30,970 nucleotides of DNA from positions 1 to 30,970 of the IMG/VR virus record IMGVR_UViG_3300009106_000391; one strand, written 5' to 3'. The position numbers and the translations under genes were made by a program. Source of the DNA: a virus. Numbering within the stretch: position 1 is the first letter of the stretch; every line of letters starts with the position of its first letter. Of the stretch, positions 14,883 to 30,000 are shown in pieces. The notes beneath the pieces are model-generated. The model made no database searches and was not told the DNA's origin. It saw only the letters and a program-made list of their open reading frames with translations.

Positions 14883-15635
14883 ATGAATTTTCATGAATTG
14901 ATTGATGAGGCAGAGAAATCTTATCAAACGAATAAAGATTTCTCTGCCTTTAGAGATGATGATTTTTATTGGTTCATAAGAGAAGGTGGTGATTTAGATT
15001 TTGTGAATCTTAAATATGCTTTTGATCATGATTCTAGATTTTTTTCTCAATTAATATCTGTAAAAAAATCTTTATTTGGATACTCAAACAAACAAGATTA
15101 TCGTCTTATTGATAGAGATGATAGTAGAGATATATTAAATTCAACATTCATTTTTTCAGATAATAAATCACATAAAAATATAGTAGAGATAGGTTCTGCA
15201 TGGGGAAATGTTTATTGATTGGTGCATGATCTTGTAGAACATGAGAAATGGATTTCAATTGATTTACCTTGTGTTTTAGATTTACAAAAATGGTATTTAA
15301 GTAATGAAATTTCTGATATAGATAAACTTGACTTTCAATCTGCACATAATTATAATGTGCCTGACAATATAGATTTAGTGATTGCAACCCATAGTTTAAG
15401 TCAGGTAACAGATGAGAGTTTTGATTTATATTATAATAAAATATTATCAAAAGCAAAATACATTTTCTATGCTACAAATCCTTGGTACATGGGTACTATG
15501 CCTCATACATTTTTAGCAGAAGCAATTTTGACAGACAGAGAGAAACAAATTGAAAAACAATTTGATGTAATCAAAAATTATGATATCGAAAGAATAACGA
15601 CAAAAATGTATAGGAATAAAAATGACGCCATTTGA
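14883..15635 (+). pseudogene. SAM methyltransferase-like gene interrupted by an in-frame UGA
   Basis: Codons 1-111 (14883-15215) and 113-250 (15219-15632) are in the same frame, separated only by TGA at 15216-15218. Across the stop the product reads like one Rossmann methyltransferase: N-I-V-E-I-G-S-A-W-G-N-V-Y just before the stop is motif I, and after it come I-S-I-D-L-P, I-D-L-V-I-A-T-H-S-L-S (motif IV) and a beta 5 strand ending I-F-Y-A-T-N-P. A single G-to-A change of TGG would create this stop. The N-terminal half begins M-N-F-H-E-L-I-D-E-A. It may be a nonsense-mutated gene, a readthrough product or a sequencing error; the second half could restart at TTG 15219. Last bases overlap gp62. 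Confidence 0.68.
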
Positions 15636-16017
15636 TTTTCTGAATGAAATAAATCAAGGTAAAAAAGACCTGATGGTTGATGATATTGATCAGCAGGTTG
15701 AAAAACAATATAATCCTTTCATTATTAATCGTGGTCTATCGTATTTTCTTGACACTATTATGGATGCAAATGAGATGAATATTCGGCATCACCTTGACAA
15801 GAAACTACAAAACGCCTACTTACTAAATATCATAAGGAAGAAGAAACGATTCTCTAAATGGTACAAAGCAGAAAAATCTGAATTATTAGAAATCGTTATG
15901 GAATTTTATGGTTATAGTATTAAACGAGCAAAAGAAGTTTTACCCTTATTGACAACCGAAGATATAGAACAGATGAAGATAGTTTTAGATAAGGGCGGAA
16001 TGAAAGGAGTGAAATGA
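15622..16017 (+). CDS. 62: Clamp loader small subunit gp62
   Basis: A 131-residue protein whose pattern (M-T-P-F-D-F-L-N-E-I-N, F-I-I-N-R-G-L-S-Y-F, D-A-N-E-M-N, H-H-L-D-K-K, K-K-R-F-S-K-W) is that of marine T4-like gp62; T4's own protein is longer (187). It lacks an ATPase site, as expected; it binds gp44 and holds the clamp-loading complex together. Position directly before regA agrees with T4 order. It overlaps the tail of the interrupted methyltransferase gene and the regA start (ATGA). Confidence 0.85.
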   Translation: MTPFDFLNEINQGKKDLMVDDIDQQVEKQYNPFIINRGLSYFLDTIMDANEMNIRHHLDKKLQNAYLLNIIRKKKRFSKWYKAEKSELLEIVMEFYGYSIKRAKEVLPLLTTEDIEQMKIVLDKGGMKGVK

Positions 16018-16412
16018 CTTATGGTGTTGACCAAATGATAGAGGTCACTATAAAGGAATCGGATGACTTCCTTAAAATCAAAGAAACACTAACACGTATT
16101 GGTGTCGCATCACGCAAAGACAAGACATTATATCAGTCTTGTCATATTCTACACAAACAACAGAAATATTATATTGTGCATTTCAAGGAATTGTTTGCAC
16201 TAGATGGTAAGCCTACAAATTTTTCAGAGAATGATATTGCAAGAAGAAATACAATCACAAATCTTTTAGCAGAATGGGAATTGCTTACAATAGTTGAACC
16301 AGAAAAAACAAAAGATCCTGTTGTATCTCTCAATCAATTAAAAATACTTTCATTTTCAGAGAAAGAAGAGTGGATACTTACTCCCAAATATAACATTGGT
16401 AAAAAAACATAA
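16014..16412 (+). CDS. regA: Translational repressor RegA
   Basis: A 132-residue protein. From residue 8 the sequence M-I-E-V-T-I-K-E-S-D-D-F-L-K-I-K-E-T-L matches the T4 RegA N-terminus, and K-D-K-T-L-Y-Q-S-C-H-I-L, Y-Y-I-V-H-F-K-E and the C-terminal P-K-Y-N-I-G-K follow. RegA binds AU-rich translation starts of early phage mRNAs, including gp44, gp45 and its own. ATG 16014 is chosen because AAGGAG is ideally placed (16004-16009); an internal ATG at 16035 matches the T4 start, so seven extra residues are possible here. ATG overlaps the gp62 stop. Confidence 0.95.
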   Translation: MTYGVDQMIEVTIKESDDFLKIKETLTRIGVASRKDKTLYQSCHILHKQQKYYIVHFKELFALDGKPTNFSENDIARRNTITNLLAEWELLTIVEPEKTKDPVVSLNQLKILSFSEKEEWILTPKYNIGKKT

Positions 16413-19145: not shown

Positions 19146-21661
19146 GTTTTTATACTAACGTCCAAAATGTAAAAGGTCAAATCTTCTATCGTGGAATAGA
19201 TGATAAAGGCCGACACTTCAAGCAAAAAGTAGACTACAACCCTTCCCTATACATCCCTTCAGCAAAAGAATCTAAATGGAAAACCCTTGAGGGTGAGAAC
19301 GTATCCGAAGTTCCATGCGGTTCTATAAACGATGCAAAAGATTTTATTCGTAAATATGAAGGTGTAGATAACTTCAAGATTTATGGTAATACAAACTTTC
19401 ATTATTGTTTTATTGCTGATAACTTTCCTGATACAATATATTATGATATCAATCAAATCAGTATTGCAAACATTGACATAGAGACTGGTTCAGAGAATGG
19501 TTTTCCTGATCCACAGATAGCATCAGAAGAAGTCATATCAATTACTGTAAAAGTCAAAGGTAAATTTTATTCATTTGGTTGTGGTGAATATACACCAAGT
19601 GATGAGAATGTGACATATGTACGATGTTCTAATGAAATTCACATGTTGCAAGAGTTTCTTTCGTTCTGGGAAAAACTTGATGTTGATATTGTGACTGGAT
19701 GGAACGTAAAGTTTTTTGATATACCGTTTCTTGTCAATCGTATGAATAGGTTGTTTGATAAGCCTGAATATCAAAGATTGTCACCTTGGAAGTTTGTGAG
19801 TGAGAGAACAGTTAATCAAATGGGTTTCGGTGGTACACGAGAGCAACAAGCATTTGAATTGGTCGGTGCCGCCACGCTTGATTATCTTGATCTATATCGT
19901 AAATTTACATACACACAACAAGAAAATTACAGACTTGATCATATCGCACACGTAGAACTTGGTGAGCGTAAATTAGATTATTCAGAGTTTGACAATCTGC
20001 ATCAGTTATATAAACAAGACTTTCAGAAATTCATGGACTACAACGTGAAAGACGTTGACCTTGTAGATAAACTTGAAGACAAATTGAAATTGATTGAGAC
20101 CGCAGTTGTTCTTGCATATGATGCAAAAGTAAATTACACAGATGTCTTCACACAAGTAAGAATGTGGGACACTTTGATATATAATGAATTGCGTGGCAAA
20201 GGTATCGTACTTCCACCAAAGAAAAATACTTTCAAGGAAAATCCATACGAAGGTGCCTATGTGAAAGAACCAGAACCTGGTGCATACAACTGGGTTGTAT
20301 CGTTTGACTTGAACAGTTTATACCCTCATTTGATTATGCAGTATAATGTATCACCTGAAACTATGGTTCTTGATTATCCGCCTCAGGCGGTAACAGTTGA
20401 TAAATTGCTTGATGGTGAAATAGATACTTCTTATTGTCAGAGACAGAATTTGAGCATGGCCGCAAATGGTTATCATTTTCGCAGAGACATACAAGGATTT
20501 CTACCTGCTATGATGGAGCGTATGTACAATGAGAGATCCAAGTTTAAGAAGCAAATGCTTGAAACACAACAACTATACGAAAATGAAAAAAATCCATCCG
20601 AGCGAGTGAAACTATCAAAAGAAGTTGCAAGACTTGACAACATGCAGATGGCAAGAAAAATTCAACTGAATTCTGCTTATGGTGCTTTGGGTAATCAGTA
20701 TTTTCGTTTCTTTGATGTGAGATGTGCAGAAGCAATTACGACTGGTGGTCAGTTATCCACCAAATGGGTTGAGCGAGATGTAAATGAATATCTAAACAAA
20801 ATACTCAAAACAGAAGATAAGGATTATGTCATTGCATCCGATACAGACTCCATCTATGTTAATCTTGAAGACCTTGTGAAAAGTGTATTTGATGATACGA
20901 GTGACAAGACAAAGGTGATTGATTTTCTTGACAAGGTGTGTGATGGCAAAGTACAAGAATGTATTGACAGATCGTTCAATGGGTTACGTGAATACATGAA
21001 TGCATATCAGCAGAAGATGTTCATGAAACGTGAGGTTCTTGCTGACAGAGCAATCTGGACTGGTAAGAAACATTATATCATTAATGTACATGACAGTGAA
21101 GGTGTGCGATTTGAGAAACCTAAAATCAAAGTCAAGGGACTTGAATCGGTTAAATCTTCAACACCTGCTATTGTGAGACAAAAACTTGCTGATGCATACA
21201 AAATTTTGATGAATGATACGGAAGATGATATGATTGCATTCGTTGAAAGTTTTAGAAATCAATTTGAGTCACTACCACCTGAAGATGTTGCGTTTCCTCG
21301 TTCTGTTAAAGGTATTGCAAAATATAGTGATGCAACAATGTTGTACAAAAAAGGAACACCAATACATGTAAAAGGCACGATTATACATAATAAATTATTA
21401 AAAGAACATAAACTTACGAGAAAATATCAGATTATCCAAGAGGGTGAAAAGATAAAATTTTCGTATCTTAAAACACCAAATCCAGTAGGTGATACAGTTG
21501 TGAGTATGGGTAACACATTGCCTGCAGAATTTGGATTACATGAATTTATTGACTACGATACGCAATTTGAGAAAACATTTCTTGATCCGTTGAAAGATAT
21601 ATTGAATTGTGTAGGTTGGGAATATGAAAAGAGATATACAATTGATAATTTTTTTGTTTAA
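19142..21661 (+). CDS. 43: DNA polymerase gp43 (family B)
   Basis: An 839-residue replicative polymerase, somewhat shorter than T4 gp43 (898). Exonuclease motifs: D-I-E at 112-114 (same numbering as T4), G-W-N-V-K-F-F-D (Exo II) and Y-N-V-K-D-V-D (Exo III). Polymerase motifs: D-L-N-S-L-Y-P (motif A, D389), K-I-Q-L-N-S-A-Y-G (motif B) and S-D-T-D-S-I-Y (motif C, D567 and D569). All catalytic residues are present, so both synthesis and proofreading should be active. Start at 19142 is supported by the ATGA overlap. It is followed by uvsX after a short gap with an AAGGAG ribosome site. Confidence 0.97.
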   Translation: MSFYTNVQNVKGQIFYRGIDDKGRHFKQKVDYNPSLYIPSAKESKWKTLEGENVSEVPCGSINDAKDFIRKYEGVDNFKIYGNTNFHYCFIADNFPDTIYYDINQISIANIDIETGSENGFPDPQIASEEVISITVKVKGKFYSFGCGEYTPSDENVTYVRCSNEIHMLQEFLSFWEKLDVDIVTGWNVKFFDIPFLVNRMNRLFDKPEYQRLSPWKFVSERTVNQMGFGGTREQQAFELVGAATLDYLDLYRKFTYTQQENYRLDHIAHVELGERKLDYSEFDNLHQLYKQDFQKFMDYNVKDVDLVDKLEDKLKLIETAVVLAYDAKVNYTDVFTQVRMWDTLIYNELRGKGIVLPPKKNTFKENPYEGAYVKEPEPGAYNWVVSFDLNSLYPHLIMQYNVSPETMVLDYPPQAVTVDKLLDGEIDTSYCQRQNLSMAANGYHFRRDIQGFLPAMMERMYNERSKFKKQMLETQQLYENEKNPSERVKLSKEVARLDNMQMARKIQLNSAYGALGNQYFRFFDVRCAEAITTGGQLSTKWVERDVNEYLNKILKTEDKDYVIASDTDSIYVNLEDLVKSVFDDTSDKTKVIDFLDKVCDGKVQECIDRSFNGLREYMNAYQQKMFMKREVLADRAIWTGKKHYIINVHDSEGVRFEKPKIKVKGLESVKSSTPAIVRQKLADAYKILMNDTEDDMIAFVESFRNQFESLPPEDVAFPRSVKGIAKYSDATMLYKKGTPIHVKGTIIHNKLLKEHKLTRKYQIIQEGEKIKFSYLKTPNPVGDTVVSMGNTLPAEFGLHEFIDYDTQFEKTFLDPLKDILNCVGWEYEKRYTIDNFFV

Positions 21662-25094: not shown

Positions 25095-25306
25095 TAAAAG
25101 TATCATCCGTAGATAATGAACCATTTTCTATGACTATAGAATATAAAAATCACAGTGTTATTTTGGTCGGATTACAGACCGGAGATGGGTATGATGGAGA
25201 TTTAAAGGTATTTAAAGGTGATCTAGATGTATCTGAAAAAATAGGTGAATATGACATTTCAGGAGAAGGATTGAAAAAAATACTTGACACTATCGACACT
25301 TTTTGA
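25091..25306 (+). CDS. Hypothetical small protein (71 aa)
   Basis: A 71-residue acidic protein of beta-type pattern (alternating V/I and charged residues, G-D-G-Y-D-G-D-L) that is not recognised. It starts in the gp41 stop (ATGA) and is the last gene before a promoter and terminator. Its final codons contain the -35 of that promoter. Confidence 0.65.
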   Translation: MIKVSSVDNEPFSMTIEYKNHSVILVGLQTGDGYDGDLKVFKGDLDVSEKIGEYDISGEGLKKILDTIDTF

Positions 25307-25312
25307 TAAAAT
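25284..25312 (+). promoter_or_regulatory. Promoter overlapping the end of the 71-aa gene
   Basis: TTGACA (25284-25289), a 17-base spacer and TAAAAT (25307-25312) with TG one base upstream. The predicted start of transcription (about 25319) falls at the first base of a terminator-like hairpin (25321-25344), an unusual arrangement. Confidence 0.62.
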
Positions 25313-25320
25313 AGTTACTG

Positions 25321-25344
25321 AGAGTGAGAGTTTCACTCTTTTTT
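25321..25344 (+). terminator. Terminator-like hairpin between gp41 unit and the late block
   Basis: A 7-bp stem (AGAGTGA 25321-25327 with TCACTCT 25333-25339), a 5-base loop and a run of six Ts (25339-25344). Outer bases AGTTAC (25313-25318) and GTAACT (25345-25350) can also pair. It probably ends the gp43-gp41 transcripts, and may also act as an attenuator or 5' stabiliser for RNA from the overlapping promoter. Confidence 0.7.
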
Positions 25345-25368
25345 GTAACTCTAATTAAAAAAGGTCTT

Positions 25369-26019
25369 ATGCTCAAATATATTTTCATAATCCTTACTGC
25401 ATTGTACTTTGGTATTCCATTTGCATATGAAAAAGCAATTGGTGCTGAAACTAAAGTTATTACTATGAATGGTAAACAATGGCTTGTTATAGTCGAACAA
25501 GGCAAAGAACCGATGCTAAAACCTCTTGAAAAACCGAGAGCAAAAAAACCGACTATAGTATCAACTGTAAAGAAGGAGCCGGAATGGCAACGTAAAACAG
25601 TTAAGGAATCAAAATTAGTACAAGTATGTGATGATCCTTTAGGGTGTGTCATGACACCTGAGGGTGATTGTCCTGATTGTAAAACTGAACTTGTCAAAGA
25701 AGAAACGGTAGAAGTTGTACAAAAATCAGATTTTACTGCTTTTAAAGAAAACGTCAAAGCACAAAATTCTTTGAATGAAAAAGTTAAAAATACTAAAACA
25801 AAATGGTATTTACAAACATATGACTGGATGAGAGATGTTGGTCATCCATCATATATCTGTTGGAAAGTCATGCTTACGTGTCAGCATAATGATCCAATTT
25901 CCATTCAAGACCTATATCTTGCCAAATTAAATGCATCAACATGTTCTGATTTTCAACATACATTTAATTTCACCAACCCAATATCATCCTGCCAAAAATC
26001 TACAATACTTAATCTTTAA
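25369..26019 (+). CDS. Putative exported protein of unknown function (216 aa)
   Basis: The start at 25369 is chosen because AAAAAGG lies 4 bases upstream and because the earlier in-frame start (GTG 25324) would run through the terminator hairpin. The N-terminus (about residues 3-20, Y-I-F-I-I-L-T-A-L-Y-F-G-I-P-F-A-Y) is a signal peptide or membrane anchor. A Lys/Pro-rich segment follows (about 45-75), then two Cys pairs, C-x5-C and C-x2-C (C-D-D-P-L-G-C ... C-P-D-C), and more Cys towards the C-terminus, consistent with disulfides outside the cytoplasm. The function is unknown. Confidence 0.65.
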   Translation: MLKYIFIILTALYFGIPFAYEKAIGAETKVITMNGKQWLVIVEQGKEPMLKPLEKPRAKKPTIVSTVKKEPEWQRKTVKESKLVQVCDDPLGCVMTPEGDCPDCKTELVKEETVEVVQKSDFTAFKENVKAQNSLNEKVKNTKTKWYLQTYDWMRDVGHPSYICWKVMLTCQHNDPISIQDLYLAKLNASTCSDFQHTFNFTNPISSCQKSTILNL

Positions 26020-26023
26020 TAAA

Positions 26024-26031
26024 CATAAATA
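26024..26031 (+). promoter_or_regulatory. T4-late-like promoter CATAAATA
   Basis: CATAAATA differs from the T4 late octamer TATAAATA only at the first base, a position reported to vary in marine T4-like phages. With the usual spacing, transcription would start about base 26037, 20 bases before the start codon at 26057 and within the left arm of an inverted repeat. Confidence 0.5.
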
Positions 26032-26072
26032 GTTTGAAACGAGTTATGCAAAAATTATGCAGAGTTTCAAAC
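26032..26072 (+). promoter_or_regulatory. Inverted repeat enclosing the start codon of the 412-aa gene
   Basis: GTTTGAAAC (26032-26040) and GTTTCAAAC (26064-26072) are perfect 9-base complements with a 23-base loop that contains the ATG (26057-26059) and the weak ribosome site. The right arm is codons 3-6. The loop holds a direct repeat, TTATGCA-AAAA-TTATGCA. Folding would hold the start in a closed loop in transcripts that come from upstream. Confidence 0.6.
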
Positions 26073-27295
26073 AATTTATAAATGAAGAAAAGAACTTACA
26101 TCTAGAACACATAGAAGATGAAGTTCTCAACAATGGAGTAGATGGCACACGGCAAGCAATAAACTTTCTCAGAGGTTTGAGAGATATGCTTGCTGGTTCA
26201 TCAAAAAGCGGAAAGCAGGTTCGCATCACCGTAAAATGGGATGGTGCGCCTGCTATTTTTGCAGGAATTAATCCTGAAAATAATAAGTTTTTTGTTGGTA
26301 CAAAAGGAGTTTTTGCAAAAACTGCAAAACTTAATTATACTCCGGAAGATATCGATAAAAATCATCCTGCTGAAGGGTTAAATAGAAAACTCAAATTAGC
26401 ACTTGAGTATTTGCCTGAATTGGGTATACAAGATGTCGTACAAGGAGACATGATGTATAGTCAGGAAGATCTACAGGATGAAACGATTGATGGTGAAGAA
26501 TATTTGATATTTAAACCAAATACTATTGTTTACGCAATACCTAAAAATAGTGATTTGGCTAAACAAATATCAATATCAAAAATGGGTATTGTATTTCATA
26601 CTAGATATTCAGGTGATAGTTTACCCGAAATGGATGCCAATTTTGATATTGATGTTTCTCAAATGACACAAACACCGAATGTTTGGTTTAGGGATGCAGA
26701 ATATGAAGATGTAAGTGGTACGGCATCTATGACTGAGAAAGAAACGGCACAAATAACAGGAATTCTATCGGGCGCTGGAAGATTATTTAGACAATTAAAT
26801 CCGAATATACTTAAATATATTCAAAATCATAAGGACGTGAATATACAAATTAAAGCATACACAAATACGAAAATACGAGAAGGGCGTCCGATAGAAAACC
26901 CTGATGCACATGCAAGAGGATTGATAGTTTATCTGAAACAAAAATTTGAAAAGGAACTCAATAAATTAAAAACCGAAAAAGCAAGAATAAGAAAGCAACA
27001 GGCACAAAGAGAATTTTTGAAGTTTTTTCAAACAAACATAAGACAATTATCACAAATATTTGAAATGCAAAATATGTTAATTGCATGTAAAATATTGATA
27101 TTGAGAAAATTAGAGCAGGTTAAAACATTGACAAAAACTTTTATTCAAGATGACGATGGTTTTAGAGTGACAAATCCAGAGGGGTTTGTTGCAGTAGATA
27201 AGTTAAAATCTGACCAGTATGTGAAACTGGTAGATCGTCTTGAATTTTCAAGACAAAATTTTAATGCCGCCAAAAACTGGTCAAAGGGAGCATAA
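26057..27295 (+). CDS. KxDG nucleotidyltransferase/ligase-like protein with capsid-targeting-like N-terminus (412 aa)
   Basis: Annotated elsewhere, if at all, as a conserved marine-phage protein; I infer more. V-K-W-D-G-A-P-A (K60, D62, G63) fits motif I (K-x-D-G) of covalent nucleotidyltransferases (DNA/RNA ligases, capping enzymes), where the Lys takes the nucleotide. Further matches are V-V-Q-G-D-M-M-Y (127-134), N-P-E-G-F-V (373-378, motif IV E-G-x-V) and Y-V-K-L-V (388-392, motif V-like Lys) at ligase-like spacing. The stretch between 310 and 360 is a Lys/Gln-rich coiled region. The N-terminus M-Q-S-F-K-Q-F-I-N-E matches the T4 capsid targeting peptide with a gp21-type cut after I-N-E. 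The fold and activity are not proven. Confidence 0.62.
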   Translation: MQSFKQFINEEKNLHLEHIEDEVLNNGVDGTRQAINFLRGLRDMLAGSSKSGKQVRITVKWDGAPAIFAGINPENNKFFVGTKGVFAKTAKLNYTPEDIDKNHPAEGLNRKLKLALEYLPELGIQDVVQGDMMYSQEDLQDETIDGEEYLIFKPNTIVYAIPKNSDLAKQISISKMGIVFHTRYSGDSLPEMDANFDIDVSQMTQTPNVWFRDAEYEDVSGTASMTEKETAQITGILSGAGRLFRQLNPNILKYIQNHKDVNIQIKAYTNTKIREGRPIENPDAHARGLIVYLKQKFEKELNKLKTEKARIRKQQAQREFLKFFQTNIRQLSQIFEMQNMLIACKILILRKLEQVKTLTKTFIQDDDGFRVTNPEGFVAVDKLKSDQYVKLVDRLEFSRQNFNAAKNWSKGA

Positions 27296-27688
27296 ATGTT
27301 AAAACAAGAAGAGCAATTGCTTGAAACACTTAATGGTAAAATGATCGATATCACTTTATCCGAAGGTGTAGATACACGATTAAGAAGATTAGCCACTCAA
27401 GGTCTTATTGCAAAAGATGAACTTGCGTTATTCACAAAACTCATAAAAGATCTTGATGATGGTAAATCACCTACGTTGCCACAACGTATGATGGTAATGA
27501 GAGTTTTTGACAAACTTCTGAAACTCATAATGGATAATAAAGAAGTGTATCAGAGAGTTTTGCAGACTGTTAAAAAGGATAAAAAAGTGAAAAAAGAAGC
27601 ATTCGAAGCCACACATACTATCGTTGAACACAACGGAAAAAGATTTGTCATTGACGAAAATGAGCAATTAGTTCCTTATAATGGATAA
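27296..27688 (+). CDS. Conserved small phage protein (130 aa)
   Basis: A 130-residue helical, basic protein (leucine-rich heptad-like repeats in the first 90 residues, then K-K-D-K-K-V-K-K-E and a short beta tail) with no domain I recognise. It starts on the base after the stop of the KxDG protein and precedes the NMNAT-like gene by 11 bases, so the three are probably co-expressed. It may be a partner protein of either neighbour or a structural component; this is a guess from context. Confidence 0.7.
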   Translation: MLKQEEQLLETLNGKMIDITLSEGVDTRLRRLATQGLIAKDELALFTKLIKDLDDGKSPTLPQRMMVMRVFDKLLKLIMDNKEVYQRVLQTVKKDKKVKKEAFEATHTIVEHNGKRFVIDENEQLVPYNG

Positions 27689-27699
27689 TAAATATTCAT

Positions 27700-30000
27700 A
27701 TGCGACTTAAAGATTTACACGAAAAACTAGATGGAAGAACCGCAGTTTTCACATTTGGTAGAATGAATCCTCCTACTATTGGACACGAAAAACTTCTTAA
27801 TAAGTTGAAAAATGTCGCTAGTAAAAGTTCTGCTGATTGGTTCGTATATTTAAGTTCAAGTCAAGATGCCAAAAAGAATCCACTACCTTTTGAGCGTAAA
27901 ATTCACTATGCCAGAAAGATGTTTGGTAGAGATGTGAATGCAAGAACCTTTCCTAAAGAGCCCACCGTACTCCATGCCGCTTCATCTCTTTACGGTAAAG
28001 GTTATAAAAAATTAATTATGGTTGTAGGGTCAGATAGAATAAATGATTTCAGCAAACTCCTCAAGCAATATAACAATCAAGATAAACCTCATGGATTTTA
28101 TAATTTCGATTCGATTGATGTTGTGTCAGCAGGTGAGAGAGATCCTGATGCCGAAGGTGTATCAGGTATGTCAGCATCAAAGTTGAGAGGATTTGCAGTT
28201 CAAGGTAAATATGATGAGTTTGCGAAAGGGTTGCCAGGGTTGAATGATAAAGATGCAAAATCATTATTTAATGAAATACGAAAAGGATTAAAATTACAAG
28301 CAATATCTGAAAAAATCAAAGTGCAAAAAGAAATTATACCAGAAAAGGTTACTATGAAATTATCTACATTCAGAAATATTTTTAAGAGAGAAAAAATAGA
28401 TGAAGATATTATGGATGTATTAAAGAAAAAGGCAGAGGTTTCCGGTATTTCTTTACAAATATTAAAATCAATTTATGAAAAAGCAGTAAAGCAATATAAA
28501 CTTGGACATGAAATAGGACAGGTGAAAGAGCAATATGCTATGCAAAAAGTGAATGTACATCTTCTTAAAAATAAAAATATAGACAATACAAATGAGCAAT
28601 TTAAGGAATGGATGAAGATGACTGATTTTGCAGTTGTAGATGAGGCAACTGATGTTGTTGTGAGTACACCAACAGGAAGATATCAAACAAAAACAGATAG
28701 TGTGACAAAAACGAAGCAAAAAGAAAAAACGAGATTTAGATCATCTGCTGATAGAAATAGTGTAACAGTAAAACGAGCAACTTCAAGAGACAAACGATAT
28801 ACTGATCAAGAACCTGTACAACCTGTACAAGAAATGATGTCTAGACCTCATGTATTTGTAGGTATTAAAGATACGGATCCTCGGTCTAATCTACGCCCTA
28901 GTGTTAGTTATAAACCAGGTAAGTCGGACGATTTAGTATTAATCAAACCTGTGGAAACAGATTTTTTTAACGAGAACTTAAAAGAACTTATTAATTCACC
29001 TTATGATTTTTTAGAAGAACTTAAATTGCATACTAATTTTCCAATATTGATAAAAGATAAAGGTGCTGAAAAGAAAATGGTAGATGCCATCGTAAAGAAA
29101 AAATCATTTACGACTTCAGGTTATTATGGCGACAAAGTTTATGCAGTTGGCACAAATGAAAATAGTTTGAGAAAAGCATTAGAAAATTCTAAAATGTACG
29201 AAAGTCTTGATGAAGCAACTGGTAATGAAATTAAAAAGTACATGAAATCAAAATGGAATACTGATGTAAGAGCATCTAAAGTTGGTACTGGTAAGTCTAT
29301 GAGGGTGGTAGGTAAGATTCCTAATGATTTTAGAGCATTTGTTATTAAGAAGTTTGAGCCCAATGCAAAAATTATGGATAAGAACAATATTGATTATGGA
29401 AACATAAGAGGTAATTATGTTTCACTTAGAGTTGGTGAATGGGATGAGTTATTGAAAGAGGATATTCAAGAAAAAGCAGTATCAAAACAACAACAAAAAT
29501 TCTTTGGTCTTGTCAGAGCAATTCAAAAAGGTAAAGCAAGTGGATCTCCTGAAGCAGAGAAGACCGCACGAGATATGAGTAAGAAAGATGTGAAAGATTT
29601 TGCCAGCACAAAGCATAAAGGTTTACCGAAAAAGGTTCAACAAGAAGGAAAATTACTCAAAAGAATTAAAGAGTTGAAAAATAATACTGTTTCTGAAGAA
29701 TGGGAATTTGATGCAAATACACTTCTTCAACAATTGGGTGGTAATAAATTTATGGTTATGACTGGTGCTAAAAATCTCATGGTTGACAAAGAAGAAAAAT
29801 CTTTACATATGAGAATAGGTAAAAACTCAAAAGGTATCAATCATCTTAAAATAACATATATGCCAGATGACACTTATACTATGGATTTTGGACGAATTAG
29901 AAAACTCGACTATAAAGTGGTTCGTTCAGTTAAAAGCGTGTATGCAGAGGCATTACAGGATGTTTTCACAGAAGTAACTGGAATGTATACCAGTTTATAG
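27700..30000 (+). CDS. NMNAT-type nucleotidyltransferase fused to several small phage domains (766 aa)
   Basis: Residues 1-200 are a cytidylyltransferase-fold domain: F-G-R-M-N-P-P-T-I-G-H (19-29, the H-x-G-H-type site) and S-G-M-S-A-S-K-L-R (about 153-161, the I-S-x-T-x-x-R-like motif) point to an NMN/nicotinate adenylyltransferase or related enzyme. A long basic linker follows (about 200-400). Near 600-650, K-A-V-S-K-Q-Q-Q-K-F-F and D-V-K-D-F-A-S-T-K-H-K-G-L-P form the small DUF3008-like module common in phage proteins. The last 100 residues (W-E-F-D-A-N-T-L-L-Q-Q-L-G-G-N-K-F, M-T-G-A-K-N) are another domain found in phage structural or head-associated proteins. The mixture suggests a packaged, multi-domain protein. 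Confidence 0.75.
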   Translation: MRLKDLHEKLDGRTAVFTFGRMNPPTIGHEKLLNKLKNVASKSSADWFVYLSSSQDAKKNPLPFERKIHYARKMFGRDVNARTFPKEPTVLHAASSLYGKGYKKLIMVVGSDRINDFSKLLKQYNNQDKPHGFYNFDSIDVVSAGERDPDAEGVSGMSASKLRGFAVQGKYDEFAKGLPGLNDKDAKSLFNEIRKGLKLQAISEKIKVQKEIIPEKVTMKLSTFRNIFKREKIDEDIMDVLKKKAEVSGISLQILKSIYEKAVKQYKLGHEIGQVKEQYAMQKVNVHLLKNKNIDNTNEQFKEWMKMTDFAVVDEATDVVVSTPTGRYQTKTDSVTKTKQKEKTRFRSSADRNSVTVKRATSRDKRYTDQEPVQPVQEMMSRPHVFVGIKDTDPRSNLRPSVSYKPGKSDDLVLIKPVETDFFNENLKELINSPYDFLEELKLHTNFPILIKDKGAEKKMVDAIVKKKSFTTSGYYGDKVYAVGTNENSLRKALENSKMYESLDEATGNEIKKYMKSKWNTDVRASKVGTGKSMRVVGKIPNDFRAFVIKKFEPNAKIMDKNNIDYGNIRGNYVSLRVGEWDELLKEDIQEKAVSKQQQKFFGLVRAIQKGKASGSPEAEKTARDMSKKDVKDFASTKHKGLPKKVQQEGKLLKRIKELKNNTVSEEWEFDANTLLQQLGGNKFMVMTGAKNLMVDKEEKSLHMRIGKNSKGINHLKITYMPDDTYTMDFGRIRKLDYKVVRSVKSVYAEALQDVFTEVTGMYTSL

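Follow-up and report, generated by a model that had tools for sequence, protein, structure and literature searches.

Does the inverted repeat around the start of one gene of a marine T4-like virus confine the translation of that gene to the late stage of infection? The window, that is, the whole 30,970-nt stretch of viral DNA that was analysed, lies in the replication region of such a virus, in which genes for the clamp loader, RegA, a RecA-like protein and a DnaB-like helicase precede the leader of interest. In this leader the start codon ATG at 26057, which opens a gene of the DUF6267 family, is enclosed by a 9-bp inverted repeat (26032-26040/26064-26072). We give a probability of about 0.7 to the reading that the leader is a late-only translation switch acting in cis, which works like that of T4 gene e, with the difference that the stem lies past the AUG, within codons 3-6. 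This reading appears well supported by the sequence, its conservation, the predicted folds, the gp55 and gp45 homologues and T4 gene e as a positive control; the read-through from upstream, the RNA start near 26037 and the effect on translation are what we infer.

According to the proposed switch, RNA of the early or middle class, initiated upstream within the replication region, would carry the whole leader, in which 26025-26040 would pair with 26064-26079, enclose the DUF6267 start region in a stem of 9-15 bp and keep the ribosomes off. In the late stage, RNA polymerase of the gp55/gp45 type would start near 26037 from CATAAATA, within the left arm, and the resulting RNA, lacking most of this arm, would form no stem and would be translated. 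If this is true, late promoter, repressor stem, ribosome start and capsid-tag codons would all be packed into about 55 nt.

Layout of the leader

The preliminary description had reported a perfect 9-bp repeat around the ATG, adjoining CATAAATA. This was confirmed, and the pairing was even longer than claimed, as it continued outward of the core to 15/16 bp (26025-26040/26064-26079; 94% complementary over 16 nt); the late box is thus itself a part of the left arm (Table 1). Counted from the first base of the AUG, the right arm starts 7 nt downstream; by position, late RNA with the predicted start at 26037 would retain AAAC from the left arm. In the predicted fold the Shine-Dalgarno candidates lie in the loop and the AUG lies partly within a weak inner stem of the loop, the sequence of which differs among relatives. 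GGAA was found ahead of the AUG in 15/16 close leaders, this virus being the exception. An upstream AUG at 26046 was considered as the start of a small regulatory frame and was rejected, as it is missing in relatives of the GCGTGG type.

Table 1. Positions of the features at the DUF6267 locus, in window coordinates
Feature	Position	Strand	Remarks
Sigma-70-like promoter before the upstream gene, TTGACA-N17-TAAAAT	25284-25312	+	
Terminator-like hairpin	25320-25340	+	At the presumed RNA start of the sigma-70-like promoter
Upstream gene, 216 aa from this ATG	25369-26019	+	GTG start at 25324 possible; possible source of read-through
Late promoter box CATAAATA, T4-type	26024-26031	+	Read from sequence; outer part of the left arm
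Extended left arm	26025-26040	+	15/16 pairs with 26064-26079
Core left arm GTTTGAAAC of the 9-bp stem	26032-26040	+	Non-coding
Predicted late RNA start	26037	+	From T4 late promoter spacing; sixth base past the box, within the left arm
Loop	26041-26063	+	GAGTT (26041-26045), initiation region, AUG
Putatively regulated gene, DUF6267 (PF19782, E 2e-112), 412 aa	26057-27295	+	N-terminal capsid-targeting-like tag; KWDG
Core right arm GTTTCAAAC	26064-26072	+	Inside codons 3-6 (Ser Phe Lys Gln of the tag)
Extended right arm	26064-26079	+	Codons 3-8
Late box of the cytidyltransferase-like gene starting at 27700	27688-27694	+	Spacing puts the RNA start on its ATG

Predicted folds and chance occurrence

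When the RNA of 26020-26090 was folded, an energy of -15.4 kcal/mol (z -5.74) was obtained, as good as which none of 200 shuffles gave; the late form (26037-26090) folded no better than its shuffles (z 0.12). Across the whole window, 16 perfect inverted repeats with arms of 9 bp or more and a loop of 3-40 nt were counted, compared with a mean of 7.6 in shuffles; of these, the one at 26057 alone encloses one of the 33 listed gene starts. At least one 9-bp repeat enclosing a listed gene start was also present in 21/100 shuffled windows, so the repeat alone is weak evidence and significance drawn from the single sequence was rejected. It is the conservation among relatives, together with the rank of the folding z and of the opening cost among other gene starts (below), that exceeds chance. 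The window held no excess of ATAAATA, with 9 occurrences against 16 expected.

Gene starts were further compared in a 116.9-kb record (G001), which matches the window along two stretches, one of 23.5 kb (99.96% identity) and one of 7.4 kb (99.99%). The folding z of the 26057 gene (-4.82) was the lowest among 171 starts of G001 genes of at least 60 aa, and the same gene ranked fifth by folding energy alone. The predicted cost of opening the region from -12 to +16 of this leader was 16.3 kcal/mol in the long RNA versus 5.0 in the late RNA; over the 16 close leaders described below, all of which fold, it ranged from 11.4 to 18.4 kcal/mol for the long and from 4.0 to 7.2 kcal/mol for the late form. 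The long-minus-late opening cost (11.1) was the largest of 17 box-to-start pairs in G001, the next being 5.6.

Conservation among relatives

Relatives were collected by an IMG/VR protein search, of which the best 80 of 346 were used (one of the six query peptides falls in the tag), and by a second protein search from a diverged member (best 80 of 595, partly overlapping the first set); leader patterns contributed a few others. In this way 16 distinct close-relative leaders with 78-100% protein identity were obtained, 13 via the protein searches and three (L083, L085 and L089) via the leader pattern, so these three were bound to match. One locus was left out of the count of boxes and stems, being too near a contig end, and another (L096) was left out because its protein match begins at residue 182, the leader itself being present; in L096 (8512 onward) the leader is intact and the DUF6267 frame is seemingly interrupted. 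The leader alignment (A1) has 15 rows because two of the leaders (L005 and L006) are identical there.

The ATAAATA box was found in 16/16 close leaders, and the perfect stem had 9 pairs in 12 of them, 8 in two and 6 in two. The left arm GTTTGAAAC was identical in 13/16 and the right arm GTTTCAAAC likewise in 13/16, with TGAAAC/GTTTCA kept in 16/16. Loss of one arm in close relatives had been named in the preliminary description as a finding that would speak against the switch. Some pairs were indeed lost, since in L009 and L011 both sides of one pair are changed to an A-G mismatch that breaks it, the end pair is lost in L004, L010 and L011, and L011 has lost 2/9 pairs by sequence with a third predicted unformed; no arm was lost in any of them.

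Among 44 blocks of 20 nt (880 nt, 17 sequences), the block with the box and the beginning of the left arm was the most conserved (mean conservation 0.95). GAGTT in the loop is also invariant among the close leaders, and the invariant run TGAAACGAGTT continues into the loop; pairing thus does not account for all of the conservation, and a further feature, perhaps the ribosome site, is under selection as well. The short motif GTTTGAAACGAGTT occurred in one copy each in 15/81 loci and in zero copies in the remaining 66, and a longer motif had one copy per record in three larger records, which leaves the idea of the leader as a repeated element unsupported.

In a scan with a pattern in which the left arm was free, 20/21 stretches were DUF6267 leaders, the other (L289) being unrelated. 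With TGAAACGAGTT and part of the loop alone fixed, 45 stretches matched, of which 25 lacked a box in the preceding 29 nt and are apparently due to chance, and the matches listed for a still looser leader scan were mostly unrelated. A scan of cellular genomes with the pattern gave 11 matches and no relative. In a phage collection no good match to the leader was obtained; the marine record MH319749, matched at E 4, was discarded as a leader carrier, as it has a box but, by eye, no such repeat.

In 103 distinct leaders of distant relatives (about 52-58% identity, among the best 80 of 346 and the best 80 of 595, with the start taken as the nearest ATG or GTG), the box was found in one, an 8-bp stem in five and both in none. 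We also inspected 20 named phages, namely 19 chosen among 60 listed DUF6267 records, and HTVC008M, which is on that list too. A late box was present within 80 nt before DUF6267 in three of them (S-PM2, P-RSM6 and S-CRM01) and absent in 17, in several of which DUF6267 overlaps the preceding gene, and the hairpin leader was found in 0/20. Since the box is so rare in the distant leaders and in these phages, the switch is not general for the DUF6267 gene.

Constraint on the coding arm

The right arm lies in codons, and synonymous difference in the DUF6267 gene was 0.015 in codons 2-10 versus 0.275 from codon 21 onward. For six control genes with at least nine sequences, the corresponding values were 0.229/0.319, 0.075/0.223, 0.131/0.302, 0.315/0.314, 0.251/0.357 and 0.206/0.265. 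The values were also computed for eight genes with 2-5 sequences, which were excluded from the controls; for two of these genes the difference in codons 2-10 was 0, based on 3 and 7 comparisons. By this measure gene starts are often somewhat constrained and the DUF6267 start is far more so. Ser3 is AGT and Phe4 is TTC in 19/19 coding sequences, some of which are near-identical; in the 26 genes of the window AGT makes up 19% of Ser codons, and TTC 21% and TTT 79% of Phe codons. A second strong synonymous dip (0.034) was seen in codons 61-70 (26237-26266, WDGAPAIFAG).

Covariation as a proof of the stem was rejected, as compensatory changes were absent among the close leaders: 0/9 pairs had such a change on both sides and seven pairs never vary. 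Stem cells were paired at 96.3%, compared with 96.5% in column shuffles and at most 54.1% in slid structures, and the covariation term was 0.07.

Late machinery and possible transcription from upstream

A homologue of the late sigma factor gp55 was detected in G001 (69% over 116 aa), together with homologues of gp45 (clamp), gp43, RegA, gp41, gp23 and gp22; the gp17 query gave no match in G001, a record that is maybe incomplete. ATAAATA also lies upstream of the scaffold and tail-tube genes in G001, and NATAAATA is given as the late motif of cyanophages in PMC2984593. T4 late boxes precede the RNA start by roughly one turn of the helix (PMC2988020), and this rule places the predicted RNA start of the leader near 26037.

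No terminator-like site was found on the + strand from 25341 to 26057, so RNA of the upstream gene should run into the leader. The strict sigma-70-like pattern seen before this gene was present in 8/17 upstream regions, this virus included, and not in nine, one of which was too short. The hairpin at 25320-25340 may limit read-through from the nearest upstream RNA; a similar layout of promoter and terminator-like hairpin (25284-25340) was noticed by eye in four relatives. On these sequence features, read-through into the leader is plausible.

A separate observation concerns the spacing between late boxes and start codons. On the + strand of G001, ATAAATA-N5-ATG was the commonest spacing (6/29 sites, with 0-3 at every other spacing from 0 to 40), and such sites occur at 27688-27700 of the window and at 20911, 41678, 73870, 108713 and 114756 of G001. 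With an ORF of at least 40 aa required, the N5 spacing was found at 5/37 sites in G001, 10/35 in 14 close loci, 1/11 in part of HTVC008M and 0/95 in 63 distant loci; among seven control words, one likewise reached 4. As the T4 spacing puts the RNA start on the ATG at these sites, leaderless late messages are possible in this clade.

The DUF6267 gene and its tag

DUF6267 matches were found in 464 phage records, and the KWDG of the protein is invariant in 31 aligned sequences; this motif resembles motif I of ligase-type nucleotidyltransferases. A structure model (mean pLDDT 75.5) gave no match at E 0.001 or better in a PDB structure search, ligases appearing among the insignificant matches only, and a PDB sequence search gave no match at E up to 1. 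DUF6267 matches positions 21-342 of phrog_455 and the cytidyltransferase-like protein (27700-30000) matches positions 416-734; as the two match different parts, a fusion is possible in some phages. A search of the available literature for DUF6267 yielded no paper.

The capsid-targeting-like tag noted earlier gained support, with MQSFKQFINEE here compared with MKTYQEFIAEA of T4 ipII and ipIII (the next residue being S in ipIII and R in ipII). A tag-like pattern was present in 6/197 N-termini versus 2/1319 internal stretches. The six ORFs start at 14883, 17956 and 26057 of the window and at 21323, 74926 and 76386 of G001, the 43-aa one at 21323 being doubtful, and to judge by their N-termini they are perhaps a set of packaged proteins.

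Alternative explanations

The leader could instead be an operator, to which a phage protein (of the RegA type, or DUF6267 itself) would putatively bind at near-palindromic GTTTNAAAC sites or at the RNA hairpin, and so repress the gene. Both GTTTGAAAC and GTTTCAAAC are near-palindromic, the invariant TGAAACGAGTT reaches into the loop, a RegA homologue is encoded at 16014-16412, and I-TevI provides a precedent in which the operator overlies the late promoter (PMC2988022). However, the spacing between the starts of the two sites is not constant (31-33 nt), which weakens a helically phased DNA operator, and no second target was seen, as the 15 loci with GTTTGAAACGAGTT have a single copy each and so do the larger records (n = 3) with the longer motif. 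We consider an operator unlikely.

Alternatively, the gene could simply have a late promoter, a 5′ leader that is strongly conserved and a start rich in A/T, and the repeat would then arise incidentally from the tag codons together with the promoter. The frequency of such repeats around listed starts in shuffled windows, the absence of covariation and the partial constraint on other gene starts all fit with this. Yet the left arm neither codes for protein nor belongs to the box, and its core is kept in all 16 leaders; moreover, TTC and AGT, the less common codons, are retained in every sequence, and the fold z is the most extreme among the G001 starts. We regard such a by-product as likewise unlikely. 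It would be highly improbable, in our view, that a nuclease cuts the read-through RNA at the stem and thereby yields a late-looking 5′ end. The long stem (15/16 pairs) around the start region would suit such processing, and T4 employs nucleases on early messages (PMC3014915), but a late box of T4 geometry is present at the stem in 16/16 close leaders.

Comparison with known systems

Two cyanophages point to different arrangements. P-RSM6 and S-CRM01 have a DUF6267 homologue with a late box beginning 30 and 23 nt, respectively, before the ATG, and the device in them would be a terminator, in contrast to the stem over the gene start here. In P-RSM6 (locus L329, 365-395) a terminator-like hairpin AGAGGGGTAAACCCTCT with a T run directly follows the late box and immediately precedes the DUF6267 ATG. 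Late RNA is predicted to start with the first base past the left arm of this hairpin, so it would be devoid of the terminator. In S-CRM01 an annotated terminator lies just ahead of the late box. These two layouts suggest other ways to keep DUF6267 late. In S-PM2, where the late box lies 26 nt before DUF6267, the opening cost was 5.5 or 7.0 in the long RNA versus 6.7 in the late RNA, with no clear difference, and a terminator-like site was not found there. It is tempting, though doubtful, to propose that DUF6267 is a capsid-packaged enzyme which is harmful if made early, and that T4-like lineages insulated it by different devices: a hairpin from late promoter and tag codons here, a terminator lost from the late RNA in P-RSM6 and a terminator just before the late box in S-CRM01.

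If the proposed late-only switch is true, it would tell when the DUF6267 protein is needed, and the logic of T4 gene e would reach marine T4-like phages and the widely matched DUF6267 gene. In a pelagimyophage study (PMC7029224), prediction of middle and late promoters is described as unsuccessful in those genomes. For phages of this kind, a late leader that is conserved would offer a useful anchor.

Genes e, soc, 49 and I-TevI of T4 carry such hairpin structures, and that of gene e cuts lysozyme synthesis 100-fold (PMC3014915). For T4 soc, gene 49, I-TevI/II/III and segB and for Aeh1 mobE, a start-region hairpin that RNA initiated upstream can form is described in PMC3014915 and PMC2988022; unlike the intron endonuclease systems, the DUF6267 locus has no homing endonuclease or intron. 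In what was available of PMC3014915, PMC2988022 and PMC2988021, the DUF6267 leader is not mentioned. When T4 soc was subjected to the same calculation, the opening cost was 12.4 for the long and 8.9 for the late form, and gene e with its two late boxes gave 16.7/6.7 and 16.5/3.0 kcal/mol (long/late), compared with 16.3/5.0 here.

In T4 gene e, which encodes the lysis enzyme (lysozyme) and not a DUF6267 protein, the 5′ strand of the hairpin that spans the gene start contains the late box, as in the present leader. The folds differ in that the right arm of gene e holds AGGAGG and the AUG, whereas here the right arm lies in codons 3-6 and the AUG in the loop; for this reason the leader is a candidate member of the gene e type in the strict sense. 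The likeness to gene e put forward in the preliminary description is retained for the late box, the geometry, the conservation, the gp55/gp45 homologues and the opening costs, with the predicted position of the right arm as the detail that differs. Although the Shine-Dalgarno candidates and the AUG are predicted outside the main helix, the leader most likely works like the T4 gene e switch.
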